DNA from: Porticoccaceae bacterium
GTDB lineage: Bacteria > Pseudomonadota > Gammaproteobacteria > Pseudomonadales > Porticoccaceae
DNA length: 14,736 nucleotides
Assembly: GCA_002692165.1 (NCBI GenBank)
Contig: NZJL01000067.1
Span: 25,007 to 39,742, forward strand
Reading direction: 5' to 3'
This document shows, one piece after another, positions 1,933 through 14,736 of this stretch. The notes under the pieces were generated by a model. The model saw nothing but the letters and a program-made list of their open reading frames with translations, was not told the DNA's origin and made no database searches. Position numbers and translations under genes: made by a program. Each line of letters begins with the position of its first letter. Within the stretch, counting starts at the first letter, position 1.

Positions 1933-3069
1933 ATGTCTTTTGTACCTGAAAAATCAATAAGTTTTTCTCCCACGCTAGCAGCAACCATCGGCCTACAAGA
2001 AGCAATACTTTTGCAGCTATTGCAGGAATGTGTCAGTCACAACGATACCTACTTGGAAGATGGGCTTAGATGGGTAAAGATCAAAGAGGAAAAATTGTTG
2101 GAGCTAGCGCCATTCTGGCAGCTGCAAGATCTCGTTAGGTGGACAGATAGTCTCAAGGCCAAGGGGGTTCTGCTTCTCAGGAGAGAAAGTAACGCCCAAC
2201 AAAAATTTTATGATTTTGCGTTCAACGAGCATAATCAGAATACTGAGATTTCAAAACTCGATAGTCCAGAAAATCATGAACAACGAGTAATTTATAGTTT
2301 AGCCTCGTCGCAGCAAAGTGCAAAAACAATGAAAAACGACTGGCGACCTGGGACAGATTGTCTCAGGCAGCTTTATCAGTTGGGAGTCTCTCAAGAGTTC
2401 GCGCTCCAACAGATTCCTCAATTTATAGCATACTGGCGCGATAGAAACGTTGCGAAGCATAGCTGGGAATCCAAATATATAAAGGACGTTTGGCGCGAAT
2501 GGCAGAAAATGCAATCAACTAATGAACAGCGCAGAAAAGAAATATCGCTGACCGAAGATTGGAAGCCCTCAAGTGATGCAATAGAAATTCTCGTAAGAAA
2601 TGGTGAAATCAGTGGCAACTTCGTTGAGGATGCCATTCCAGAGTTCATCCTATACTGGCGTGACCGCGGCGATGTGTCGAGCACATGGGACAGTAAATTT
2701 GTGCAACATGTCCGACGACAATGGAATTTCTATTCTGGGATGACGAATGAGGAGACGATGCCCCAACCAATATCAGAATCTTGGCAACCGAGAGAGTCCG
2801 TGTATGACGTGCTAAAAATGGCAAACATTGACCGACAGTTTGCCGAACAGCTGCTCCCTCAATTTGTCATTTACTGGTGTGAAAATGGCGCATCCCAGAG
2901 CTCGTGGAGTACTAAATTTCTTCAGTTTGTGAAAAGCGAGTGGGCCAGAGGCAGACAAACGCAAATAACGGAATCAAGTCATGGGAAACAGCTCGAAAGA
3001 AATCCAAAAGGTCGTATCAGGGATCGCAACATCATCGAAGCATTGTCTGACAGAAGCTGGGCATCCTAA
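1933..3069 (+). CDS. DnaT-like primosomal protein with three tandem DnaT-type DNA-binding repeats
   Basis: This is probably a single-stranded DNA-binding or primosomal protein. The first ~100 residues (PEKSISFSPTLAATIGLQEA onward) look like the winged-helix-like N-terminal domain of DnaT-like proteins. Three copies of the DnaT DNA-binding domain follow, at about residues 135-193, 209-267 and 283-341. Each has the pattern (D/S)W-P-(8-12 residues)-L, then IP-F--YW and a final SW-(S/T)K(F/Y)---V---W. E. coli DnaT has one such domain and acts with DnaC and PriA/PriB to reload DnaB at stalled forks. The frame is open from a TTG at 1873, but the ATG at 1933 fits the family's N-terminus (MSFVPEK). 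The C-terminus ends in a basic stretch and DRSWAS, encoded inside the 89-base overlap with the next gene. Family membership is seen in the sequence; the exact role is inferred. Confidence 0.85.
   Translation: MSFVPEKSISFSPTLAATIGLQEAILLQLLQECVSHNDTYLEDGLRWVKIKEEKLLELAPFWQLQDLVRWTDSLKAKGVLLLRRESNAQQKFYDFAFNEHNQNTEISKLDSPENHEQRVIYSLASSQQSAKTMKNDWRPGTDCLRQLYQLGVSQEFALQQIPQFIAYWRDRNVAKHSWESKYIKDVWREWQKMQSTNEQRRKEISLTEDWKPSSDAIEILVRNGEISGNFVEDAIPEFILYWRDRGDVSSTWDSKFVQHVRRQWNFYSGMTNEETMPQPISESWQPRESVYDVLKMANIDRQFAEQLLPQFVIYWCENGASQSSWSTKFLQFVKSEWARGRQTQITESSHGKQLERNPKGRIRDRNIIEALSDRSWAS
2335..2955 (+). repeat. Three in-frame DnaT-domain repeats (74-codon period)
   Basis: The units occupy 2335-2511, 2557-2733 and 2779-2955. 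They begin exactly 222 bases (74 codons) apart and are separated by linkers of about 15 residues. They are similar at the protein level (W-P, YW, SW-K, final W) but clearly diverged at the DNA level. This indicates old domain duplication, not a recent or unstable DNA repeat. Confidence 0.85.
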
Positions 3070-3646
3070 GACTGGGCAAGCCAAAGCGGATTTAATTGAC
3101 GCCATTAATCAAGCTTTTGCGTTATTCCAGATTAACTACCATAATCAGTACTTCAGCGCTTTTGCGGACAATAAAAAATCAGAAGACTTGGCAAAAAAAT
3201 TGTGGCTGAGCAAACTTGGCATCTTCTCCTCAGATACCATCTGCAAGGCCGCTGAAAAAATCATCTCCGAGAATGAATATTTGCCAACTCTTTATATTAT
3301 GATAGAGGCTTGTAAAGCTACAGAAATGCCCGCAGGCGTGCCAACTGTTCGTGAAGCCTATATCGAGGCCTGCATAAAGCCCAGCCCTAAAGTAAAACAA
3401 ATATGGTCTAGCCCGATTGTCTACTTGAGTGGTCGAGATAGTGGCTGGTATCTCCTCGCTCACACTCCTGAGTATCAAGCCTTACCAATTTTTACCACAA
3501 ATTATCAAAGTTATTGCAAAGCACTTCTCAAGGGGAAGATATTTGAAATTGATCGAACGCCCGATAGAGGCGATCCTAGCCCAACTCCTGCAAGCGAGGC
3601 ATTCTTAAAGGAGCAACTAAAAAAATTAAAAGATCTATTGGACTAA
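2981..3646 (+). CDS. Lambda P-family replication protein (putative replicative helicase loader)
   Basis: Residues ~36-190 follow the layout of phage lambda P, which delivers DnaB to the origin. An opening helix (AINQAFALFQ, like INGVFSQLLATF in P) is followed by a Trp in a Lys-rich helix (KKLW, W75; RRQW in P). Then come YLP (100-102; FLP in P), AGVPTVREAY (118-127; AGLPNVSELV in P) and a GWYLL segment (HYWL in P) before a Lys-rich helix. The charged C-terminus (KEQLKKLKDLL) looks helical. The ATG is the only usable start: an in-frame TAA lies four codons upstream and the next ATG, GTG or TTG is inside the conserved core. GGA sits about 8 bases ahead. It overlaps the DnaT-like gene by 89 bases, implying co-expression and a shared role at the replicative helicase. 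Helicase loading is inferred from family resemblance. Confidence 0.75.
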   Translation: MGNSSKEIQKVVSGIATSSKHCLTEAGHPKTGQAKADLIDAINQAFALFQINYHNQYFSAFADNKKSEDLAKKLWLSKLGIFSSDTICKAAEKIISENEYLPTLYIMIEACKATEMPAGVPTVREAYIEACIKPSPKVKQIWSSPIVYLSGRDSGWYLLAHTPEYQALPIFTTNYQSYCKALLKGKIFEIDRTPDRGDPSPTPASEAFLKEQLKKLKDLLD

Positions 3647-3683: not shown

Positions 3684-5453
3684 ATGGCATTCAAACGATC
3701 AATTCATAACTCAACCGCTAGGCGAGTGGCAAAAACAATACTCAACGGTTTTCATAGCTACTTTGCCGATCATCTTAACTGGACCCTCAGCGCCAAAGCT
3801 CGCTTTGAAAAAGCTGACTGGCACGCAGTTCAGAAAGCAAATGTAGACCGTCTAGAACTCTACAAAGAAAAAATATCTCAAACTGTGCTCCATCTGGGCA
3901 TGGTAACAAATGAAGACCTAATGATGATGGATCTTTGGAGGGAGTCGAAAACCGTTTACACCCAACTGGTATTTAATCAGCCAAACTTTGAGATTGCCGA
4001 AACGTTTTTTAATTCGGTGTTCAGCGATATGCATGACCACGACAAAATATCAGAGGATATAGTCTATATCGGATCATCTCAGGTCACTGAGGCCCCTTCA
4101 GCAGAATACAGTATATACATAAGATATCAGGGTGCCGACTTTCGGGAAGTATTTAGAGATATCCTTGAGGAATCAGAGTTTTCACTTCCAATGGACAATG
4201 TTGAAATAGATCTCGATTGCATAATGGGTGTATTCGAGGATGAAATTCTATCGCAACTCTCAGAAAACCATGGTGAGGTCAAGTTTGACATTCTTGAGTC
4301 TATTTTCTACCGAAGTAAAGGAGCTTACATGGTCGGGAGGATAGTAGACCAAGAACGTGTTTTCCCGATGGCTTTAACATTTATCAATACAGAAACGGGA
4401 TCACTGTTCGTAGACACTGCGTTATTTAACGCAGATGAACTGAGTGTGGTCTTCAGTTTCACACGAAATCATTTTATGGTTGACGCCCCGCTACCATACC
4501 AATACGCACATTTTCTTCAAAATTTAATGCCAAACAAGCTCGACTTCGAAATTTACAATAGTTTAGGTTTTCCCAAACATGCAAAAACCGCATTTTATCG
4601 ACAACTAGTTCACCACCTAGGTATTTCAGACGATAAATTTATCATAGCTCCCGGCATAAAAGGGATGGTTATGACCGTTTTCACACTGCCTTCTTACAAT
4701 ATTGTATTCAAAATTATTAAAGACAAATTTGCGCCTCCCAAGGAAGTTACTCACCAAATCGTGCGAGAAAAATATCATCTTGTATCTAGGCATGACCGTG
4801 TCGGACGCATGGCGGATACTCAAGAGTTTACCAATCTTACATTTCCATTAGAACGTTTTTCCGACTCGCTCCTCTCTGAACTCAAAAAAGTGGCTGGCTT
4901 ACAAATAGAGCTCAGAGGAGACCGTCTATTAATTAAGCATCTGTATATTGAAAGATATATGACACCTTTGAATATTTTCCTCAATGGAGCCAATGAGGAG
5001 GAGACTCGTAATGCTATGGATGAATACGGAAACTGCATCAAACAATTGGCAGCAGCCAATATTTTTCCTGGTGATATGCCGTTGAAAAACTTTGGAGTTA
5101 CTCGTCACGGCAGAGTCGTTTTATACGATTACGACGAGATCACTGCCGTAACGGAGTGCAATTTTCGTAAGATCCCACAAGCACATTTTGAAGAAGACGA
5201 AATGCGCGCGGGTACCTGGTATACCGTTGATCCTAGTGACGTTTTTCCGGAGGAGTTTCCCCTATTTTTTTCTGGAAATGCAAGCGCCAGGGATATCTTC
5301 GACGAACTTCATAATGATCTCTATGACGTCACTTTCTGGCTGAATCTTCAAGATAAAATAAATCAAGGCTATGTGTTAGATGTCTTCCCCTACAGACGCG
5401 CCAAGAGCTTTAGGAGAGGCATTGACCCGCACATTGAGGTGTACACTGATTAG
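3684..5453 (+). CDS. aceK: Isocitrate dehydrogenase kinase/phosphatase AceK
   Basis: AceK phosphorylates isocitrate dehydrogenase to divert isocitrate into the glyoxylate shunt during growth on acetate or fatty acids, and reverses the modification with the same active site. The 589-residue length is normal. The ATP-binding signature APGIKGMVM is at about 322-330 and VFKIIKD at 341-347 carries the expected catalytic lysine. GDMPLKNFGVTRHGRVVLYD (463-482) and the following YDEI hold the two catalytic aspartates (D464, D482). No Shine-Dalgarno sequence precedes the ATG. A five-codon reading frame (ATG at 3665) ends one base before it. The gene starts 37 bases after the P-like gene on the same strand, so co-transcription is possible. 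No glyoxylate-shunt genes (aceA, aceB) are visible nearby. Confidence 0.97.
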   Translation: MAFKRSIHNSTARRVAKTILNGFHSYFADHLNWTLSAKARFEKADWHAVQKANVDRLELYKEKISQTVLHLGMVTNEDLMMMDLWRESKTVYTQLVFNQPNFEIAETFFNSVFSDMHDHDKISEDIVYIGSSQVTEAPSAEYSIYIRYQGADFREVFRDILEESEFSLPMDNVEIDLDCIMGVFEDEILSQLSENHGEVKFDILESIFYRSKGAYMVGRIVDQERVFPMALTFINTETGSLFVDTALFNADELSVVFSFTRNHFMVDAPLPYQYAHFLQNLMPNKLDFEIYNSLGFPKHAKTAFYRQLVHHLGISDDKFIIAPGIKGMVMTVFTLPSYNIVFKIIKDKFAPPKEVTHQIVREKYHLVSRHDRVGRMADTQEFTNLTFPLERFSDSLLSELKKVAGLQIELRGDRLLIKHLYIERYMTPLNIFLNGANEEETRNAMDEYGNCIKQLAAANIFPGDMPLKNFGVTRHGRVVLYDYDEITAVTECNFRKIPQAHFEEDEMRAGTWYTVDPSDVFPEEFPLFFSGNASARDIFDELHNDLYDVTFWLNLQDKINQGYVLDVFPYRRAKSFRRGIDPHIEVYTD

Positions 5454-5470: not shown

Positions 5471-5995
5471 TTAGTAATCGATCAAAAAGGCAGTGTCACC
5501 TGCTCGCAATTCTATGACCTGTGCTCCTATATGAAAAAGCACCCAATGTTCGTCAATTATGTCTCCCTCCCGGTATGCTCTTTCTCCGATAAAGATTTTA
5601 TTCCCCGAAGCACCTTCGCCGATATAAATGCTGCCCGTAACAGAGATATTTGGCGCCCGTTCGAAATTTTCAGTGATACCTTGTCGCCTAGATTCCGAAG
5701 CTTCATCTTCTTTAGGCACCTTTGATCTGAAAGATTTGCGGTCCTCAAGCTCAGAATAGTCTTTGTCTAGCGGAAACACCGGCTCAATCGACTTAATGTT
5801 ATAGATGAAATACACGAAAGAAGTTAACAGCGCCACTACGATAATCGAAAAAATTAAGTTTCCCGCTAAACCGGGGCGCTCGATTTTGCTCTCAATTGAA
5901 TCCCAAGCGATGCCTGTGATGTCCTCAAAATCTATATCGCCCTCACGCGCCCTATCCTTCTGCGCCTTCTTTAGGGCGTCCAATATATAAGACAT
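5471..5995 (-). CDS. gspB: T2SS accessory protein GspB (ExeB-like)
   Basis: GspB forms an inner-membrane complex with GspA that helps the GspD secretin assemble through peptidoglycan (known from Aeromonas ExeA/ExeB). The protein has the typical opening MSYILDALKKAQKDR and one membrane segment at about 46-65. A periplasmic linker rich in charged residues follows, then a short C-terminal T2SSB-type domain (about 118-174: SVTGSIYIGEG to TAFLIDY). That domain contains YREGD, which is also found in the HR domain of this operon's GspC. The ATG is preceded by a good GAGGA sequence and lies 4 bases after the gspA stop, indicating translational coupling. It is the last gene of the operon and converges with aceK. 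At 174 residues it is a short but complete GspB. Confidence 0.85.
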   Translation of the reverse strand: MSYILDALKKAQKDRAREGDIDFEDITGIAWDSIESKIERPGLAGNLIFSIIVVALLTSFVYFIYNIKSIEPVFPLDKDYSELEDRKSFRSKVPKEDEASESRRQGITENFERAPNISVTGSIYIGEGASGNKIFIGERAYREGDIIDEHWVLFHIGAQVIELRAGDTAFLIDY

Positions 5996-5999
5996 ATCC

Positions 6000-7655
6000 T
6001 CATCTTCTCCTCAACAAGGGAATACTTTTATCGGTGAGCTTATTAAGCATCATGGTGGTTTGATCGCCTAGAATACCATCTGCGAGGAGCTTATGTCGCT
6101 CCTGAAATTCAACAACTCTTAGCCGGACAGCCTCAGTATAATGTCCTCCAGTGATAACCCATTCATACTTATTATCTATCAGCATCAAACGAGTTTGCAG
6201 CCAGTCAACTAATGGCCGATTCGACATCCCCTTTTTTAATACGCCATAGCCCTGTGGCGGCTTCCATAAATATTTAAACGATCCATCCCAACTTTTAACG
6301 AATTGATCATATCGCATAGTTCTCGAACCATTCTCAGCAGCAAGTATCAATTCGGTACCGTCAATTTCGGTCAGAAGGACCGCCTGCTCGGTTGTATGCT
6401 CAACCAAATAAACTATTCCTGGCCTATCAATTTTCAGGAGGTCTTCGAAATTTAATCCTTCAACACTACTCAATGTTAATTCGAAGGAATCTATCATCTC
6501 TGCGTAAGTTTTCTCCATATTCCAAGACATTGATCCAGAAACCCAAAGTTCTAGTAATCGCTCTTCTGGCGATAAAATCGATTCCGAATTCTGGATAACT
6601 TCAATTGCGTGCCTTCCGGAAATGCTTTTGTCACCATCAGGCGACTTGGTTGCCAATTCTGGAGCTGTTTTTTTTTCAGTTATGCTGGCGGGCGTTGAGC
6701 TTAAATTTTTATGAAATAGGACATTGCCATTGTTCTGAGTAAGGAAATAAGTTGCCGCGCAAACCACAAACAAAGAAGAAAAAAGTATTGAAATTGCGAC
6801 CCATCGACCGTGCCCGAGGGGATTTCGATTATTACAATCAGGTAGAATTTCACTTGCAGCCGATTTTAGGAGACTTCCAGAAATATTATCGCTACCGTTT
6901 GAATATGCCGCTAATAACGATTGATGGCACACTAAGTTAATAAGCCTAGGAATTCCCCCTGTCAGTTTATACAAGACCCTTTCACATTCAACTTTGAATA
7001 TCGGTTGCTTTGCTCCGGCTTTCTGTAGACGATGATTTACATAGTTTGCTATTTCTTTTTGACCAAGTGGTTGCAGGTGGAATCTGGCTATGACTCGCTG
7101 GTTTAACTGGCGGAGATCTGTTTGAGCTAGTATTGGGAGTAACTCGGGTTGGCCTACCAAAAGGATATGTAAAAGTTTGTTTGTCTCGGTTTCGAGGTTG
7201 CTCAGCAGTCGAAGAGATTCCAAAACACCATGATTAAGATTTTGGGCCTCTTCAACAACAATGAGTGTCTTCTTTCCATCAGCATGAGTAATGAGAAGGT
7301 CTTGATAAATTGCGTCTGTACATATCTTAGCGTGAGAGACGCCTTCCTGGTCTGAAAGATCAATATCCAACTCGTGACAAATGCTGGCCAGTAGATCGCT
7401 GGACTCCAATTTACTGTTGAGCACATACGCAACTCGAATATGGGCAGGCAAACTTTTTAAAAAAATCCGAGTTAAGGTCGTTTTCCCCGTTCCAACCTCC
7501 CCTGTCAAGAGAATAAAGCCGCCTTCCCGGTCGAATCCATATTTTAAGTGCGCGACCGCTTGACGATGCTTGGGACTCGGATATAGGAAACTTGGGTCTG
7601 GAACGATGGAAAAGGGTTCCCTTTGCAAGCCAAAGTGGTTGAGATAAAGTGTCAA
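6000..7655 (-). CDS. gspA: T2SS accessory ATPase GspA (ExeA-like) with peptidoglycan-binding domain
   Basis: This is an inner-membrane AAA+ ATPase that with GspB helps insert the secretin through the cell wall. It opens with the family sequence LNHFGLQREPFSIVPDPSFL. Walker A (GEVGTGKT) is at 52-59 and the Walker B region (LIVVEEAQNL) at 131-140, where Glu135 stands in the place usually held by Asp. A membrane segment lies at about 286-306. A degenerate C39-peptidase-like region follows (about 380-470), then a peptidoglycan-binding module (about 480-545, with the FQERHKLLADGILGDQT signature). The start is TTG: an in-frame TGA lies six codons upstream with no other start between, and GGA is at suitable spacing. 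A run of nine A in the coding strand (6676-6668) falls in the linker just after the membrane segment. It lies 59 bases after gspD. Confidence 0.92.
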   Translation of the reverse strand: MTLYLNHFGLQREPFSIVPDPSFLYPSPKHRQAVAHLKYGFDREGGFILLTGEVGTGKTTLTRIFLKSLPAHIRVAYVLNSKLESSDLLASICHELDIDLSDQEGVSHAKICTDAIYQDLLITHADGKKTLIVVEEAQNLNHGVLESLRLLSNLETETNKLLHILLVGQPELLPILAQTDLRQLNQRVIARFHLQPLGQKEIANYVNHRLQKAGAKQPIFKVECERVLYKLTGGIPRLINLVCHQSLLAAYSNGSDNISGSLLKSAASEILPDCNNRNPLGHGRWVAISILFSSLFVVCAATYFLTQNNGNVLFHKNLSSTPASITEKKTAPELATKSPDGDKSISGRHAIEVIQNSESILSPEERLLELWVSGSMSWNMEKTYAEMIDSFELTLSSVEGLNFEDLLKIDRPGIVYLVEHTTEQAVLLTEIDGTELILAAENGSRTMRYDQFVKSWDGSFKYLWKPPQGYGVLKKGMSNRPLVDWLQTRLMLIDNKYEWVITGGHYTEAVRLRVVEFQERHKLLADGILGDQTTMMLNKLTDKSIPLLRRR

Positions 7656-7714
7656 AGAACTATCCGCGATTCATCCAAATGTGCCCTCCAATTTCAGCCC
7701 TAATGTTCTGGCCA

Positions 7715-9637
7715 TCATTCTTTTGGCGGAGGGTTGCTCTCATGTGGCTCCATCATATCATCTGCTGGCAAAAAAGATTTTAACTTAGGCGCCATAAAGT
7801 TTGAGTCATCGTCGCCAACAAGATCTCTTTTGATGAGGTGATCAAAACGACCTCGGGTGACAGACCGCCCATCCCCAGCAGTCCTGATAATCGTGGGCCG
7901 AATAAACATCATGGTTACACTCTGGCCGGATGACCTACCTGTTTGCCTGAATAACCGACCGATCACCGGAATATCGCCTAGTATCGGCACCTTTGCAGAG
8001 GTGCCCACTCCTGAGTCCTCAATTAAACCTCCCAAAACCAATAACTCTCCGTCTTGAACCATAACATTGGTCTGCATGGTAGCTTTTGAGGTCGTTTGTA
8101 ATCCTACAATTCCCCCATCATTTACCTTCGAGGACTCCTGCTCTATTTCAAGTCGCACGGCGTCACCTTTGCTTATTTGCGGTTTAACCTTGAGTATTAC
8201 CCCTACTTCTTCACGATTAATAGTGGTGAAAGGATTGGAGTTTAGGCTACCCGTGCTGTTATTTGTATAACTCCCGGTCTGGAACGGAACCTCCTCTCCG
8301 ACACTCAGGCTAGCCTCTTCATTGTCAAGCGTGACAACAGATGGCGTAGAAAGAATCTTAGTGGCACCATCGGTCTGAAGAGCCTGAACCAGCAGGCCCA
8401 TGCCTTTCCCGGATACTTCATTAAAGTCACCCACAGCCCCCAAAGCGGCATTAGGCAGGGCGGCGGCAAGAGCGGACTGGGAGGTATTACTTTCCTCATT
8501 TATCCCTAAGCCGAGGAGGCCTGTTAACACTCCATCAAAGTTGGTGAGATAAGCACCGCGATTTCTGCTCGAGTAAACCAACTGCGCACTTAGGTTTTTT
8601 GCTTGGTTCTCGGATAGTTCCGCAATAACTGCCTCTATCAAAACTTGTGGCCGAGGCAAATCTAGCTGCCTGACCACATTTTTCAACTCAACTATCACCT
8701 CCCTGGGAGCAGCGAGAACAATAGCATTATTAAGTTCATCAACCTCGATCTTATACGTCACATTTTTTTGCCCTTCACCCGTTGGCTGACCTGCTAACCT
8801 CATAAACGTTTCCGAACCAAGCATTCCTGACAATACCGTCTGAATCTCGGAAGCTCTCGAATAATCAAGGTAAATTACCTCGACAGTCCCTGTTTTTAGA
8901 GAGGGGACATCAAGACTAAGAAGCATCTTTCTGAATGCCGAGCGCGCCATCCCGGGGCCGCTAACAATCACTCTATTGTTTAGACTGTCCTCAACAAGCG
9001 ACAATTCCTGTTTCTGCAGTTGCTTCAGTTGACTCGCAATATGAATCGCCTCAGCTGCAGAGATATGGGTTAGGTTTATGACCTCTATGGCTGAGCTCTC
9101 CGGATCATCCATAGTTCTTACGAAGTCTTTTAGTTGCTCGATATTTGTTTCGATATCGGATACAACGAGATAATTGCTGGGAGCATAAGCCATTAATCGA
9201 GCGCCATTACTCAGCATGGGTTTTAACACAGATACTAGGGAGGCGGCTTGAACATATTGTATTTGAATCACTTCCGTTCGCATCTCATTGCCTCCAGCAC
9301 CACCTGCGAAGTTGAAGGCTTGACTAAAGGGAATAATTCTTATCACCGCACCATCTTGCACGGCTTGAAAACCTTGGACTTGAAGAGCCGACAGTACCGA
9401 CTCATAAATTAAGTCAGCATCGATAGGTCTTGGGGCAATAATGGTCACCTTCCCCTTCACTCTTGGATCAAGTACAAAAGACTTACCTGTAATTTCGGCA
9501 ACACTTTCGATAACACTTCGAATATCGGCATCTCGAAAATTGATTCGAACCTCTCCAATCGCAATGCTTCCCAAAGGAAACAGCAGAACTAAAAGAAGGC
9601 CCATCATCTTGTACTGGCTGTATTCTTTTTTTTGCAA
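7715..9637 (-). CDS. gspD: T2SS secretin GspD
   Basis: GspD forms the multimeric outer-membrane channel for folded exoproteins. A signal peptide with a hydrophobic core (MGLLLVLLFPLGSIAIG) ends near residue 28. The N0 domain (VRINFRDADIRSVIESVAE, about 29-108) follows, then N1 (120-180), N2 (182-248) and N3 (250-330). The secretin domain starts at VLIEAVIAELSEN (332) and includes VGEEVPFQTGSYT, VILKVKPQIS, VQDGELLVLGGLIED and KVPILGDIPVIGRLF. The last ~55 residues are variable and end in a Pro-rich tail that could hold a pilotin-binding segment, though none is recognisable. The TTG start directly follows a TGA AAA, with AAGGA about 10 bases upstream. ATGs at codons 11 and 12 are alternatives but lack a ribosome site. 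It lies 23 bases after gspC. Confidence 0.97.
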   Translation of the reverse strand: MQKKEYSQYKMMGLLLVLLFPLGSIAIGEVRINFRDADIRSVIESVAEITGKSFVLDPRVKGKVTIIAPRPIDADLIYESVLSALQVQGFQAVQDGAVIRIIPFSQAFNFAGGAGGNEMRTEVIQIQYVQAASLVSVLKPMLSNGARLMAYAPSNYLVVSDIETNIEQLKDFVRTMDDPESSAIEVINLTHISAAEAIHIASQLKQLQKQELSLVEDSLNNRVIVSGPGMARSAFRKMLLSLDVPSLKTGTVEVIYLDYSRASEIQTVLSGMLGSETFMRLAGQPTGEGQKNVTYKIEVDELNNAIVLAAPREVIVELKNVVRQLDLPRPQVLIEAVIAELSENQAKNLSAQLVYSSRNRGAYLTNFDGVLTGLLGLGINEESNTSQSALAAALPNAALGAVGDFNEVSGKGMGLLVQALQTDGATKILSTPSVVTLDNEEASLSVGEEVPFQTGSYTNNSTGSLNSNPFTTINREEVGVILKVKPQISKGDAVRLEIEQESSKVNDGGIVGLQTTSKATMQTNVMVQDGELLVLGGLIEDSGVGTSAKVPILGDIPVIGRLFRQTGRSSGQSVTMMFIRPTIIRTAGDGRSVTRGRFDHLIKRDLVGDDDSNFMAPKLKSFLPADDMMEPHESNPPPKE

Positions 9638-9660
9638 TTTTCAATATCCTTTGTGTCAGT

Positions 9661-10515
9661 TCAAAAGTCGATTTTTCCCAACATCGGCAACATCTTTTGC
9701 GTCAAGCTTGACGCATTAACATAAACCGTGACTTCTCTTCCGTCACGGATTACTTTAACTGGTACATTACTTTCTGCAGCAAAATTTCTCCAGCTCTCCG
9801 GATTCTTCATAAGATCGCGAACAGCCGAACCACTAACTTCAACGATGACATCTCCGTCCTCGACATCGGCCAGGGAGCGCAATTCAGCCGATAAGCTATT
9901 GAGCCTAAAGCCTGAATTAAAATTGCCTCCTTGACCGTTCAAAGTAACGGGCACGGCTCCAAACATATTGGCGATGACAAAACCCTCCTTAAGTCCTGAC
10001 TTTGTTTGTTTCGAACTCAAGGTCGATTCAAAAATTGACTCTGGTCTTTTAAGAGTCACCTGCTCCTGCAAACCGTTGCGCTCGACAATTACCCTATCGG
10101 GTTCAATGCCGTAAATAACCATATCTGATCCCAATCGATCACCCTCCCGGTATACTTTTTCAGGCGCACCGGCATGCTTTATTGTCGCAGTTGCAACTTC
10201 CGAAGTAATGAGGACCCCCAAGAGATCTGCTTTGATATTTGCCTTAGGAAGCGACTTGTTTTCACGAAATGCCAGCTGGGGGGTATATTCGCTAGCGAAC
10301 CAAATCCAGTTATTTTCTGAGGAAGGAGGAGTCCGTGGAACAGCTGCGAAATCCACCGGCTGCCTTTCAAGGGAAGTGACCAGAAATATCAAACTCACAA
10401 TCGCCAGCAGAAAAAATAAGCTTATAACCCTTTGCAAGACACTGGCCGAAACAATAATGCGTTTCCAGGATCCGGCTTTGAGAAAGTCAAAAAAGTGTTC
10501 CACCTCCACTGTCAA
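9661..10515 (-). CDS. gspC: T2SS inner-membrane coupling protein GspC
   Basis: GspC connects the inner-membrane platform to the secretin's N0 domain and takes part in substrate choice. A short cytoplasmic N-terminus is followed by one membrane segment at about 28-48 and a Pro-rich linker. The periplasmic HR domain (about 91-155, IKADLLGVLITSE to EQVTLKRPE) includes VYREGDRLG. A C-terminal PDZ-like domain (about 200-272) contains FRLNSLSAELRSLADVEDGD, as in PDZ-type GspC proteins. The start is TTG or the GTG two codons later. An in-frame TGA lies a few codons upstream and AAGGGG precedes the TTG by 8 bases, favouring TTG. The gene follows gspM across a 68-base gap instead of heading the operon. 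Confidence 0.92.
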   Translation of the reverse strand: MTVEVEHFFDFLKAGSWKRIIVSASVLQRVISLFFLLAIVSLIFLVTSLERQPVDFAAVPRTPPSSENNWIWFASEYTPQLAFRENKSLPKANIKADLLGVLITSEVATATIKHAGAPEKVYREGDRLGSDMVIYGIEPDRVIVERNGLQEQVTLKRPESIFESTLSSKQTKSGLKEGFVIANMFGAVPVTLNGQGGNFNSGFRLNSLSAELRSLADVEDGDVIVEVSGSAVRDLMKNPESWRNFAAESNVPVKVIRDGREVTVYVNASSLTQKMLPMLGKIDF

Positions 10516-10551
10516 TCCTATCCCCTTAAATCATCGATCAGTTAGCTCGAA

Positions 10552-10574
10552 GGGAACTGCGTCTTAATGTTCCC
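10552..10574 (-). promoter_or_regulatory. Inverted repeat in the gspM-gspC gap
   Basis: GGGAAC and GTTCCC form a perfect 6-bp stem around an 11-base loop inside the longest intergenic gap of the operon. No T-run follows on the minus strand (TTCGAGC), so it is not a standard terminator. It may be an mRNA processing or stability hairpin, a protein-binding palindrome, or chance. Position, in an otherwise tightly packed operon, is the reason to list it. Confidence 0.35.
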
Positions 10575-10583
10575 AGATCTCTC

Positions 10584-11078
10584 TCAAGTCTCGCTAATGA
10601 GAGCCAAGTCGGCTTGGTAATCATGACTCTCCGCAGGCTTCGAAACTTTTTCAATATCAAGCTCGGTAAGTATAAGCCCTTCACAGGCAAGTTGCTCGAC
10701 TAGACGCAAGATATCATTTGAATTACCAGATGAAACAGTCAACTCAATACTTCGCTCCCCAAAGTCAACCCGATCTAATTGAAGCTGGTTGCGTCGAATT
10801 AACATCGTCAGCAACGCTCTCTGCGCCATCCTGTCTTGCGCTTTGCGATTGCAACTGGTTTGCAGGCTTGTGACGATCGGCACCTGCTGGCCAATCCACT
10901 CTAGATCCGTTTTCCTATCTGAAATTTCCCGATTCATGTTTACATGCGACTGCCATAGCGATTCCAATAACATTAAAAGAGCAGTGGCCGCGAGTACGCC
11001 GCATCCAATTATTAATGCCCGCTTGTCTCTTAATTCAAGACGCTTAAATAGCCGCGCGGCGACAGAGCGAAAACTCAC
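10584..11078 (-). CDS. gspM: T2SS inner-membrane platform protein GspM
   Basis: GspM pairs with GspL in the inner membrane and stabilises the assembly platform. The 164 residues have the family architecture: a short cytoplasmic N-terminus, one membrane segment (about 20-41), a helical stretch (SHVNMNREISDRKTDLEWI) and a small ferredoxin-like periplasmic domain. The sequence family is weakly conserved, so the call rests on architecture plus position immediately after gspL. The GTG start overlaps the gspL stop (GTGA), with GGAG about 10 bases upstream. A 68-base gap follows before gspC, and no gspN is found there. Confidence 0.85.
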   Translation of the reverse strand: MSFRSVAARLFKRLELRDKRALIIGCGVLAATALLMLLESLWQSHVNMNREISDRKTDLEWIGQQVPIVTSLQTSCNRKAQDRMAQRALLTMLIRRNQLQLDRVDFGERSIELTVSSGNSNDILRLVEQLACEGLILTELDIEKVSKPAESHDYQADLALISET

Positions 11079-12181
11079 AAGGGGTTCTCCGGAGTGAAGA
11101 CCATTGTTAATTCATTCTTTCTCTTATTGCCCCTCGCCACGTCGAGGCTATAGCCCTCTAGGCTCAACTTTTTGGCTAGCAATTTCTCTCCGCCCTCCAG
11201 ACGTAACGTAACTTTATCTTCATCTGCTTTCAATGACACTAAATTGCACTCGCAATTGTCCATCAATTTTTCCATTGACATCAGCGCCTTGGTCGGTTCG
11301 GTATTAAAAATTTGGTCCTGCACTTTTAACCGAGTAATTTCCTGTTGACCAACTGTTTGTAATTGCTCGAGTGATACGTTCTGAACCGAAAAAACACGTT
11401 CAAAACTATCCATCAAATGAAGTTCAATCTTGCTCAGGTCAGTCTGGAGGTTTGCAGACAGAATGTTCAAATAGGTCAACAGTAATAGCATGGTCAAGCC
11501 GAAACCCGCTAAGTTTAGCTGCCAAAGATTAACGCTGGACCCCTTGATAATTGGTCGATAATCCCCGGATAATAAATTAATGCCATCACTCATTTCTATC
11601 ATCTGCCAGTTCTGAGAGTTGTCATTCACTTCGGCTAAATCTCGCAGGTGTTGGGGGATCATTTGCGAATCAGGAAGGCTAATTGACAAGCGAGGGGGAG
11701 TTTTCGCGTCCCTTATCAGACAGTCTATCATTGCCCATGTAAGATCGGCCTTGGCTGAAAATCCCTCTGACAAAGAATGTCTCACCAGAAAATACCCCTT
11801 ACGCCATAGCGCATTTATTCGCCCTTCCTCCCAAGGAACGGCGAAGTAGTCAGGGGTCATTTGAATGGGCGCAAAGCCCGCATTTTGTGCCACATTGACC
11901 CACGCATTCAGGTCGTCTTTGCTTACCACAAACACATCAACCAATTCATCGGTTGCATTATCCCCGATGACAAAGTGCGTCTTTTCCAAGGGTTGCAGAA
12001 TCTTCTCCTCGAGGATCCATGGTATTAAGCCGCTCCACTTTCTTCTGGGTGCTGTTGGCTTGGCGATGCGATGAATTGCAATCCGTTCGGAGGGTATCCA
12101 CAAGTTTGCCGGAACCAATTCAACGTCGTCGCCACGAACGTGCGTATCAAGATTGTATATATGGTCCACTGCGGCACTCAC
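11075..12181 (-). CDS. gspL: T2SS inner-membrane platform protein GspL
   Basis: GspL recruits the cytoplasmic ATPase GspE to the membrane and binds GspM. The first ~210 residues form the actin-like cytoplasmic domain, with the ILEEKILQPLEKTHFVIG segment (56-73) and the typical INLLSGDYRP motif (201-210). One membrane segment lies at about 219-241, followed by a helical stalk. A periplasmic ferredoxin-like domain at the C-terminus (about 300-368) carries KLSLEGYSLDVARG. The length (368) is a little short for the family but all parts are present. The GTG start lies 4 bases after the gspK stop, and the gene end overlaps gspM by 4 bases, so translation is probably coupled. Confidence 0.92.
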   Translation of the reverse strand: MSAAVDHIYNLDTHVRGDDVELVPANLWIPSERIAIHRIAKPTAPRRKWSGLIPWILEEKILQPLEKTHFVIGDNATDELVDVFVVSKDDLNAWVNVAQNAGFAPIQMTPDYFAVPWEEGRINALWRKGYFLVRHSLSEGFSAKADLTWAMIDCLIRDAKTPPRLSISLPDSQMIPQHLRDLAEVNDNSQNWQMIEMSDGINLLSGDYRPIIKGSSVNLWQLNLAGFGLTMLLLLTYLNILSANLQTDLSKIELHLMDSFERVFSVQNVSLEQLQTVGQQEITRLKVQDQIFNTEPTKALMSMEKLMDNCECNLVSLKADEDKVTLRLEGGEKLLAKKLSLEGYSLDVARGNKRKNELTMVFTPENPL

Positions 12182-12185
12182 CTAG

Positions 12186-13349
12186 CTAAACCCCAATCGC
12201 CCTACACGCAGTATGCATATGATATGTTTCAGCATCTTGACTGCCAATCGTCAAATTCGCTTCTTCATACATATCAATATCACTCACGGGCTCATCTAAA
12301 GGAACTATAAACTTTGGCACCACGGAAATGTCACGCGCCAGTATTGTAGGGTTCGAAGGATCTTTGCGGCGGTCTATTACGCTTTTGACCTCGAGTTTAG
12401 TATCTCCGAGCGATACGTCAATGTAAAGCTGAAAAAAATTTGACCGAACGTCGATAATTCTAGCTGGCCACCGAGTTTCTATCTCTCTTCTGGTCAATGG
12501 CAAATTCCGCTCAAGCTCATCATGAAATTCAGCAAGCGAATCAAAGTGCCTACGTTCATTTCGAGCCGAAAGCACAGCCTCGACAAATGCTTCGCTTGAC
12601 GCCCCAGCCATTGCAAACAACAGTGAAATCGGGGCAGTATTTATGTTAATGGTTGTACCCAAAGACGATCGTCCAGATAAAGGCAACGCTGTAACTAATG
12701 GCATCAGAGCAAGAACTTCACTATGCTGATATCCTATGATGGCTGCCAATTCGCTGGCATCAGTCATCGGGGTATTAGCAACCACTCGCGGAATTCGGAG
12801 GCCGTCATAGTCTCCCTGTTCTGCTCCCCACTCATTGACTCGCTCAGAATCTTTGTCTAACCAATCCACCAGCGCTCCAGACCGAGCGTGGGTATAGGGA
12901 ATATTCGAAAGCTCCAGCAGACGCCGCCAAAGGAGCACCATTCCAAGCGGTTGATCGTCATCAGTTTTTAATTCAAGCTCCAACGATTCAGGGGTAAAGA
13001 GAGCAAAGTTGTTTAAGTTTACCCTAGCTTGCAAATCGCGGATGCATCCAGTAATAGCGCCACCTTCCATTGGAAGAGCTGGCAGTGCTTGAGCCCAAAC
13101 TTCTCCCAGATGATCCACGTCTATATTGTCCATGCTCGGATTGTTCGAAAGTCGCTGCCTAGCCCAACTCTCGGCGCTGAGCACCATAAGCATTGCCTGA
13201 TCGCTATGCAAGGCAGCGCTGGACTGCGAGACATCGATCTGGTGACGATAGAAAATATTGCCTAAGACCATCACCAATGCCAAAACGAGAATCAGTGCGG
13301 CCATGAGAGCAACACCTTTACTTCGATTAGCCACTCTTCCTCTAATCAC
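12186..13349 (-). CDS. gspK: T2SS minor pseudopilin GspK
   Basis: GspK is the large minor pseudopilin that caps the pseudopilus with GspI and GspJ. A prepilin leader (MIRGRVANRSKG) ends at Gly12 and is followed by the hydrophobic helix VALMAALILVLALVMVLG. The glutamate usual at position +5 is absent, which is normal for GspK. Family features include CIRDLQARVNLNN (about 102-114) and LVDWLDKDSERVNEWGAEQG (160-179), the latter in the acidic calcium-binding area. ANTPMTDASELAAIIGY follows (191-207). A helix-hairpin-helix-like segment (ININTAPISLLFAMAG) comes later. The GTG start overlaps the end of gspJ by 8 bases with GGAG 6 bases upstream. The length (387) is typical. Confidence 0.93.
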   Translation of the reverse strand: MIRGRVANRSKGVALMAALILVLALVMVLGNIFYRHQIDVSQSSAALHSDQAMLMVLSAESWARQRLSNNPSMDNIDVDHLGEVWAQALPALPMEGGAITGCIRDLQARVNLNNFALFTPESLELELKTDDDQPLGMVLLWRRLLELSNIPYTHARSGALVDWLDKDSERVNEWGAEQGDYDGLRIPRVVANTPMTDASELAAIIGYQHSEVLALMPLVTALPLSGRSSLGTTININTAPISLLFAMAGASSEAFVEAVLSARNERRHFDSLAEFHDELERNLPLTRREIETRWPARIIDVRSNFFQLYIDVSLGDTKLEVKSVIDRRKDPSNPTILARDISVVPKFIVPLDEPVSDIDMYEEANLTIGSQDAETYHMHTACRAIGV

Positions 13350-13950
13350 TAACGACTCCGGGAAAAAGACGTGACGAAGTCATCCCATTTGTTAGGAGGA
13401 TTGTTATCTTGATCATACGCGGCAAAAGAGTTTTCTGATTTGAGTTGACAGGTGGCCAATCTCTGGTGAACCTGCCTTCTGATGAAAGATGCTCAGCGAT
13501 TACCTCCTCTACTTCATCGATCAATATCGTTCTCGTACCTTCGATGACTCGCGGCGAGGCAGTTATTGCCCATGACGTGCGCAGCAGCTGTTGCTTTGCA
13601 TTGATAGTGTAATAGATGCGTGACACTCCACTTGGATTGGTTTCCAGCATAGGGCCACCGCCTCGGCTAAACCGCAGTCCAAATTCACTCGGGTCTGTTT
13701 CATAGGGCCCCTCTGTTTTTCCGAGTCCATCAAAAAACGGGCGTCCCCGTATATGCAAAAGGTCGCGACCAATAATTTTCCAGGCCCGCATCAGTCTCTG
13801 CTGCTCTATAGACAAATCACGACTGCGTTCATTAGTATCCAGAACCATCGTCAATGCCTGATAAGCCATAACTGACATTACTGCTAGGAGGCCCAGTGAC
13901 ACAGCCACTTCAATCAGTGTAAAGCCTTTTTGTGTGCTTCCTGCCCGCAT
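13342..13950 (-). CDS. gspJ: T2SS minor pseudopilin GspJ
   Basis: GspJ is a minor pseudopilin of the GspH-I-J-K tip complex. A short leader (MRAGSTQKG) is followed by the type IV pilin-like motif FTLIEVAVSLGLLAVMSVMA, with cleavage after Gly9 and the conserved Glu at +5 for assembly. The globular part keeps family features such as WKIIGRDLLHIRGRPF and GLRFSRGG. The 202-residue length is normal. The ATG start lies 1 base after gspI, and the end overlaps gspK by 8 bases. A prepilin peptidase (GspO/PilD) is required for maturation and is not encoded in this window. Confidence 0.93.
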   Translation of the reverse strand: MRAGSTQKGFTLIEVAVSLGLLAVMSVMAYQALTMVLDTNERSRDLSIEQQRLMRAWKIIGRDLLHIRGRPFFDGLGKTEGPYETDPSEFGLRFSRGGGPMLETNPSGVSRIYYTINAKQQLLRTSWAITASPRVIEGTRTILIDEVEEVIAEHLSSEGRFTRDWPPVNSNQKTLLPRMIKITILLTNGMTSSRLFPGVVSD

Positions 13951-13951
13951 T

Positions 13952-14371
13952 TCAATATGCCCGGTTCACCAAGAAAACCGCGAGCTTGGCCTCAGAATCA
14001 GCGCTATTTGGCAAATACACTTGAACCTGATGGCGAAAAAGATTCTGACCAACAGCTGGCTCTATTTTTAGTTCCCACTTCCAAGTGCGATCAGACTCCT
14101 CATCCACTCCCTCTGCGCGCAACAATGCAACGTCATTGGAAGGAACCCAGTTTTCTACAATTTGATGTCTCTCCATAAGTTGATTCCAGGCGACTTGGTT
14201 GGCCGAGATCCGATCCTGCATCTTTATGCGCTGATCAGCATATCGGTGCACCAACTGTATTGAACTCGTTAAAACCATACTGAGAATTAACAGTGCTACA
14301 ACCACTTCCAGAAGCGTGAATCCACTGATTTCAGCTTTAATATGTCTTTCTTTCTGACAAACAACGCTCAT
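13952..14371 (-). CDS. gspI: T2SS minor pseudopilin GspI
   Basis: GspI binds GspJ and GspK in the tip complex that starts pseudopilus assembly. The prepilin motif G/FTLLEVVVALLILSMVLTSS has cleavage after Gly17 and Glu at +5. The leader (MSVVCQKERHIKAEISG) is longer than in many T2SS pseudopilins, but no other start codon lies between the ATG and the cleavage site. The C-terminal part (residues ~50-139) matches GspI size, with NQLMERHQIVENWVP and WKWELKIEP. The ATG overlaps the gspH stop (ATGA), so the two are translationally coupled. Confidence 0.92.
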   Translation of the reverse strand: MSVVCQKERHIKAEISGFTLLEVVVALLILSMVLTSSIQLVHRYADQRIKMQDRISANQVAWNQLMERHQIVENWVPSNDVALLRAEGVDEESDRTWKWELKIEPAVGQNLFRHQVQVYLPNSADSEAKLAVFLVNRAY

Positions 14372-14736
14372 AACTGATTAACTTTGATCATCTTCACGGT
14401 TGTGTTTTTGCTGTCCCAGAAGAACTTGTAAACTACCGAGGATTTTTCGAATATCATCTGCAGAGCTCCATCCGGTTCCATATAGCCATAAGACATAAAA
14501 GCAAATATTGGAAGGGGATCGGACTCTAGCAAATTGAACCGCGCGCCCGCGCTAGGGATCCCGCCCACTGAAGAATAAAATGGCACATTTGACCCCCCCC
14601 GCTCTGAAACATTCCATCTGACTTCAGCATCAGCATCAATAATAAACGGAGGTATTGAATTCTCTAACAACCAGCGGTTCCGAAAGTAAACTAGCGGCTC
14701 TAATTTACGATCCAAGTCCGATTTGTTGTTAATGAC
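14368..14736 (-). CDS. gspH: T2SS minor pseudopilin GspH, C-terminal part (cut by window edge)
   Basis: The frame is open through the right edge, reading V-I-N-N-K-S-D-L-D-R-K-L-E-P from the last base. A TTG at 14715 is internal, not the start. About 122 residues of the globular C-terminal region are visible, including PFIIDADAEVRWNVSE and YGYMEPDGALQMIF, which resemble GspH/FimT-type beta-strand domains. The prepilin leader and N-terminal helix are off the window. The call rests mainly on position directly before gspI with an ATGA overlap. A run of eight G (coding strand, 14600-14593) encodes the Gly-Gly of SERGGS. GspH is the first tip pseudopilin to join the major pseudopilin GspG. Confidence 0.75.
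   Translation of the reverse strand, partial: VINNKSDLDRKLEPLVYFRNRWLLENSIPPFIIDADAEVRWNVSERGGSNVPFYSSVGGIPSAGARFNLLESDPLPIFAFMSYGYMEPDGALQMIFEKSSVVYKFFWDSKNTTVKMIKVNQL

Follow-up and report, generated by a model that had tools for sequence, protein, structure and literature searches.

Which protein loads the replicative helicase DnaB in bacteria whose genomes show neither of the usual loaders? In the 2016 paper by Brezellec et al. (PMC5109545), this question was asked for Cellvibrionales, which are stated there to lack both dna[CI] and dciA and might have acquired another helicase operator. It is raised again by a 14,736-nucleotide stretch of DNA from a Porticoccaceae bacterium (assembly GCA_002692165.1, contig NZJL01000067.1, positions 25,007 to 39,742), referred to here as the window, in which coordinates are contig positions minus 25006. 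Two overlapping genes in the window encode a protein with DnaT-type domains and a protein resembling the helicase loader P of phage lambda. We consider it highly likely that they form a chromosomal helicase-loading module of the DopC/DopE type, in which DopE would deliver DnaB in place of DciA or DnaC and DopC would be the DNA-holding partner, docking via its tail. The pair is most likely the DopC/DopE system proposed by Brezellec et al. in 2017. That proposal reportedly described a domesticated phage pair that is derived from O and P, the loader coming from P, and that occurs in genomes lacking DciA and DnaC/I; it is said to have introduced the name DopC. The features of the pair are:

1933-3069, + strand: dopC-like gene, ATG start, 378 amino acids; winged-helix N-terminal domain, linker, three DnaT domains and C-terminal tail
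1954-2232, + strand: N-terminal winged-helix domain, residues ~8-100 (AlphaFold2 model, structure matches, profile match)
2326-2523, + strand: DnaT domain 1 (Pfam DnaT)
2545-2736, + strand: DnaT domain 2 (Pfam DnaT, 88.7 bits)
2764-2964, + strand: DnaT domain 3 (Pfam DnaT, 81 bits)
2962-3066, + strand: low-confidence, likely disordered C-terminal tail, residues 344-378 (predicted local distance difference test, pLDDT, <50 in AlphaFold2)
3049-3060, + strand: tail motif D-R-S-W (sequence)
2981-3646, + strand: dopE-like gene, predicted lambda P-type helicase loader, 221 amino acids (profile matches, predicted fold)
2981-3069, + strand: overlap of the dopC-like and dopE-like genes, 89 nucleotides

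The likeness of the second protein to lambda P had been noticed in the original prediction, which was made from the sequence alone, and the searches bore it out. The 221-amino-acid protein was matched by PHROG 109 ('P-like helicase loader') with an E-value of 6e-06. When its profile was compared with a phage P profile, the match was at 99.9% (E 1.3e-35); with lambda P alone, as one sequence, it was at 75% (E 2.4e-05). Lambda P was also the top Foldseek match for its predicted fold. The family Phage_lambda_P (PF06992) was matched at E<=1e-3 by 22 of 26 aligned relatives, while the score of the protein itself was 18.7 bits, below the Pfam cut-off of 26. Searches of PDB sequences with the protein and its profile did not find lambda P, the protein had no NCBIfam match, and the DciA domain (PF05258, DUF721) gave no Pfam match in either window protein. 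The profile and fold matches indicate that the second protein is derived from phage P.

The first protein was matched by Pfam DnaT in three stretches (E 2.6e-66), as originally read, and its ATG start is backed by an MSLIPE start conserved among relatives. The label 'DnaT-like' fits these domains and does not fit the protein as a whole. Against the NCBIfam DnaT equivalog it scored 14.5 bits versus 201, and its N-terminal domain matched that of E. coli DnaT at 0.2%, the same as a shuffled sequence. Orthology with E. coli DnaT was rejected, since the N-terminal domains are unrelated by profile. In the AlphaFold2 model, the N-terminal domain structurally matches winged-helix domains, Rep initiators among them, and by profile it matches the 'DnaD-like primosome initiator' of Stenotrophomonas phage Suso (98.7%). 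The Suso protein thus shares this domain type and carries one DnaT domain; unlike the window pair, its next annotated gene is a RusA-like resolvase and not P, and it has no D-x-S-W tail. Foldseek with the DopC model returned nothing at E<=0.001, and a second look was filled by winged-helix chains, so the other parts of DopC were barely probed.

The occurrence of the pair was compared with that of DciA across 145 genomes from the order: the window's own (78% complete) and 144 with a completeness of at least 90%. A P-like match was present in 97 genomes and DnaT in 95, these being the same genomes minus two (G054 and G118), which have DciA and no DnaT and whose P-like matches are just partial (E 2.6e-21 and 5.1e-4). 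DciA was detected in 43 genomes at E<=1e-3 (40 over the cut-off), and in 0 of the 95 genomes with both P-like and DnaT genes, even as a weak match at that threshold. Of the 43 sampled families, 27 carry the pair and 16 carry DciA, and the pair was found in 95 of the 102 genomes without detected DciA. This complementary occurrence suggests that the pair does the same job as DciA, yet neither window protein matches DciA in sequence. The window's own genome contains a replicative DnaB and gave no DciA match; no DnaC-type match was over the cut-off, and those present were read as Lon and DnaA from the length of the open reading frame (ORF). The order-wide DnaC search was uninformative because the profile also matches apparent DnaA, Lon and IS21 helper ATPases. 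An intact DciA or DnaC, which could have spoken against the originally predicted loader, did not come to light in these searches. DopE might also be a brake or regulator of DnaB, with the true loader too diverged for the DciA profile. We regard this as improbable, since not even a weak DciA match turned up in the 95 pair genomes against 43 others with one, and since lambda P is described as a helicase loader in PMC6391071.

A scan of named genome contigs confirmed 272 loci related to the P-like gene, and 80 of these were retained. Most of the 80 are titled as Porticoccaceae/SAR92, Halieaceae or Cellvibrionaceae or bear general Cellvibrionales/Pseudomonadales labels; one locus (L008) is titled as a Flavobacteriaceae bin, presumably a binning or naming error. 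The upstream ORF has three DnaT domains in 76 loci and four in 1, is cut short in 2 and lies off the contig in 1. It overlaps the P-like ORF in 79 of the 79 loci with a DnaT ORF, the 80th (L020) starting at the contig end, and the adjacent pair was also present in 38 of 38 further fetched loci, where we took the best-scoring copy per genome as the 'chromosomal' one. The adjacent pair is kept in 79 of 80 named and all 38 further loci. In the window, it lies as predicted between two genes identified by NCBIfam:

387-1757, - strand: radA
3684-5453, + strand: aceK

The place next to radA is conserved in 67 of the 68 named loci having at least 3.2 kb upstream, and aceK is near in 49 of 77 loci with room, directly next in 46. 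The ratio of nonsynonymous to synonymous substitution rates (dN/dS) against two relatives was 0.11-0.14 for DopC and 0.14-0.16 for DopE outside the overlap, compared with 0.04-0.08 for AceK. The pair is a conserved chromosomal locus and very probably not a prophage remnant. Together with the occurrence in genomes without DciA and the lambda P fold, this conservation supports the core of the original prediction, namely that the P-like protein is probably a domesticated DnaB loader with a DnaT-type DNA-binding partner.

Pairs with a single DnaT domain and other neighbours, including purU, uvrC, metG and apbC, were found on the chromosomes of families f2, f5, f7, f24, f32 and f35 (18 loci fetched). 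A tree built from 78 P-like sequences placed the 34 loci with three DnaT domains in a single group (support 100/100), whose sister was a DnaT-only single group of families f2, f7 and f32 (100/98). All 52 chromosomal copies were split from the phage and mobile copies by one branch, with a support of just 60/78. Two genomes of family f32 hold several P-like matches: in G113 (6.7 Mb) there are ten, one by the chromosomal DnaT gene and the rest scattered, some with DnaT or O/HTH partners, and in G031 there are five.

The order also has prophage-like loci with related genes, in which P is preceded by Phage_rep_O plus DnaT (L102, L140) or by HTH_36 plus DnaT (L099, L137, L139, L142, L143); the neighbours of L102 match phage repressors, an exonuclease and a deoxynucleoside monophosphate kinase. 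Such loci could speak for the window pair being the leftover of a recent prophage without a role in the host. We give this explanation almost no credence and rejected it, since the radA-side place in 67 of 68 loci, the purifying selection, the single three-DnaT clade with its support of 100/100 and the presence of the pair in 95 of 102 genomes without detected DciA all speak against it. From the ORF list of the window, no phage gene besides the pair was apparent, the other window genes not having been scanned against the phage library. Most likely, the pair was taken over from a temperate phage long ago. In Halomonas phage QHHSV-1 (L112:2040-3368), an ORF with HTH_36 and DnaT, not annotated as an initiator, overlaps P. 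Two viral-labelled contigs (L154, L155) carry P-like stretches that are 38-39% identical and so lie nearer to the chromosomal type than do the phage records, whose matches are at 22-30%.

The neighbouring radA had been taken in the original prediction as a hint of fork restart. In such a scenario, the pair would act mainly on the PriA/RadA side, and oriC loading would be left to something undetected. DnaT domains are generally known from the E. coli restart primosome (PMC4129139), radA is a conserved neighbour within the three-DnaT group, and PriA was found in the window's own genome. However, PriA is over the cut-off in 143 of the 145 genomes and does not separate pair genomes from DciA genomes, the one-DnaT pairs sit next to genes other than radA, and both the tail and the order of genes in the operon are as in phage pairs of initiator and loader. 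Since the pair occurs where DciA is missing, and PriA occurs with or without the pair, a main role in fork restart is unsupported, and we consider it unlikely.

The search was extended to 184 genomes sampled from the class. Eight of them had a P-like match at E<=1e-10, the window's own among them, and four of the seven others had a DopC-like sequence and no DciA (G300, G147, G185 and G287). The DopC-like protein of G300 has two DnaT domains and those of G147 and G185 have three each, one of them weak; the tails of all three contain tryptophan (W). Among the remaining genomes, G216 and G220 have DciA and a P-like gene without a DnaT partner, and G231 has neither DciA nor a DnaT partner beside its P-like gene. 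The two-DnaT pair of G300 (L461) lies in a 1.2 Mb genome in one contig from another order of the class, without a DciA match. In G287, a draft genome without a DciA match, a single 385-amino-acid ORF (L463:3371-4528) has an N-terminal part of the DopC type linked to a P-like part that is shortened and, judged by its sequence, appears to be a natural fusion of both partners. Another candidate DnaT-P fusion, P0084, was dropped because its sequence reads as frame-shifted past residue ~160.

What could hold the two partners together? DopC of the window ends in LSDRSWAS, and the same kind of motif ends other chromosomal DopC proteins. Phage initiators encoded before P carry such a tail whatever their DNA-binding domain, as in lambda O (LTNTDWIYGVDL), PAJU2 O (NDTSWAVGLEQDLF) and a prophage O (DDTSWRFNLGL), while E. 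coli DnaT lacks it. We looked for [DNE]x[STDE]W among the 30 C-terminal residues, a pattern written after the tails had been seen. It was present in 114 of 117 chromosomal DopC proteins (32 of 34 clusters at 50% identity), in 164 of 206 P-partnered mobile or phage proteins, lambda O included (14 of 24 clusters; 91 of the 206 rows are near-copies of lambda O and one cluster of 8 rows, L455, is possibly wrongly paired), and in none of the 116 comparison proteins lacking a P partner (none of 5 clusters; 112 of the 116 rows belong to two clusters of 64 and 48 rows). The background frequency was 209 in 4697 ORF ends. Seven loci (L004, L020, L138, L145, L291, L313 and L316) were dropped from the count, and for L082 a wrong-frame ORF was picked. 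Ten of the 24 P-partnered clusters lack the pattern as written; several of them end in W-containing variants (DSTSW, SEGW, NEDYW) and others do not. In QHHSV-1, the motif lies ~100 residues ahead of the ORF end. Klebsiella-type O proteins followed by a gene other than P end in KDYGQTEIPSWARD; that gene was identified in one case (L161) and is of the DnaC type. Their relatives with P next end in LHWNSxDAWRDFL, which is rich in W but falls outside the pattern.

The shared tail suggests that the D-x-S-W motif may dock the loader. An acidic-tryptophan tail, D-x-S/T/D-W, might even be a general docking code for P-type loaders across lambda O, diverse phage initiators and DopC, changed with a DnaC-type partner. 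Domestication would then have preserved the code as the DNA-binding part evolved, with one clade going from a single DnaT domain to three and the lineage of L463 fusing initiator and loader; we rate the chances of this wider idea as about even. The tail might instead bind DnaB, SSB or DnaA, or the chromosomal motif might be kept since its codons also encode the start of DopE, and we treat these alternatives as a serious if less than even prospect. The window motif does lie within the overlap, and TEAGH, the reading of the second frame there, is a conserved DopE stretch; a DnaB-binding tail would show the same distribution because P proteins work with DnaB. But overlap alone fails to explain the motif, because the motif occurs in phages whose genes barely overlap: PAJU2 O ends one base into P, a gap separates the genes in L098, L101, L108 and L136, and the lambda overlap is 4 nucleotides. 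Moreover, members of one phage O group have different ends according to whether the partner is P, the sole non-P partner identified being of the DnaC type, and a DnaB-binding tail is not expected to vary with the loader because DnaB is the common helicase in all cases. The overlap (2981-3069) is conserved in both frames, DRSW of the first protein and TxAG of the second using common codons. No published description of the tail was found in a literature search, whose coverage did not extend to subscription papers, nor in the accessible parts of PMC6022878, PMC6391071, PMC3640518 and PMC5043065.

In the module that we favor, DopE would bind the host DnaB ring and deliver it to DNA in place of DciA or DnaC, and DopC would take the position of O in the phage O-P pair. 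The winged-helix and DnaT domains of DopC would hold origin or single-stranded DNA, and its flexible tail with D-x-S-W would capture DopE-DnaB and bring the complex to the DNA site. DnaB binding, loading, the origin rather than the fork as the site of action and the docking of the tail are all steps that we infer. The pair very probably has an essential function. In PMC9912922, the same LH-DH site on DnaB is reported for lambda P, DnaC and DciA, which makes a swap of loaders plausible.

Several points weigh against this reading, beginning with the sub-threshold Pfam score of DopE, the failure of the PDB searches to find lambda P, the post hoc tail pattern with its ten pattern-free clusters and the low support for the branch between chromosomal and phage copies. 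The N-terminal domain of DopC matched the lambda O domain at just 2.9%, so that direct descent from a lambda-type O is not established; the tail and the gene order agree with a derivation from O, the N-terminal domain does not. Neither loader was detected in 7 of the 145 genomes (G032, G040, G071, G078, G097, G137 and G143), and thus the DciA profile misses some cases or other loaders exist. Six of the seven belong to families f33 and f40, and as other members of these families show weak or moderate DciA matches, a missed DciA is suspected; the seventh, G078, is a broken-up assembly from a family that carries the pair. Since the window's own genome is 78% complete, its lack of DciA is weak evidence taken alone.

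The window pair resembles the DopC/DopE system in being chromosomal, adjacent and conserved between species, in the absence of DciA from all 95 pair genomes and in its P-derived second protein. With lambda O-P it shares the gene order, the P-type loader fold and the O-type C-terminal tail; it differs in the N-terminal domain, in its DnaT domains, as lambda O has no Pfam DnaT domain, and in the length of the gene overlap (89 versus 4 nucleotides). As in E. coli DnaT-DnaC, a DnaT domain protein is encoded directly ahead of the loader, but here the loader is of the P type, there are three DnaT domains, and the N-terminal domain and the tail set DopC apart from E. coli DnaT. The original prediction was thus partly supported: its main idea is right but not new, as the module appears to have been proposed already as DopC/DopE. 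Added here are the tail, the fusion and the occurrence beyond the order; these, as well as the DnaT domains and their triplication and the families outside Cellvibrionales, may already be part of the 2017 proposal. The DopE family is cited in PMC13326638. Elsewhere in the window, the - strand at 5471-14715 may encode a type II secretion or pilus-type export cluster and an ExeA-like ATPase, as read from the ORFs alone.

Helicase loading is an essential step, and DciA, DnaC/I and P, three unrelated proteins, are thought to bind the same DnaB site (PMC9912922). A clade that is common at the ocean surface and uses a phage loader for its chromosome would be a natural test of a loader swap. If the tail is indeed a docking element, the handover from initiator to loader could be tested through one residue, W376 in the window DopC and the equivalent residue close to the C-terminus of lambda O.
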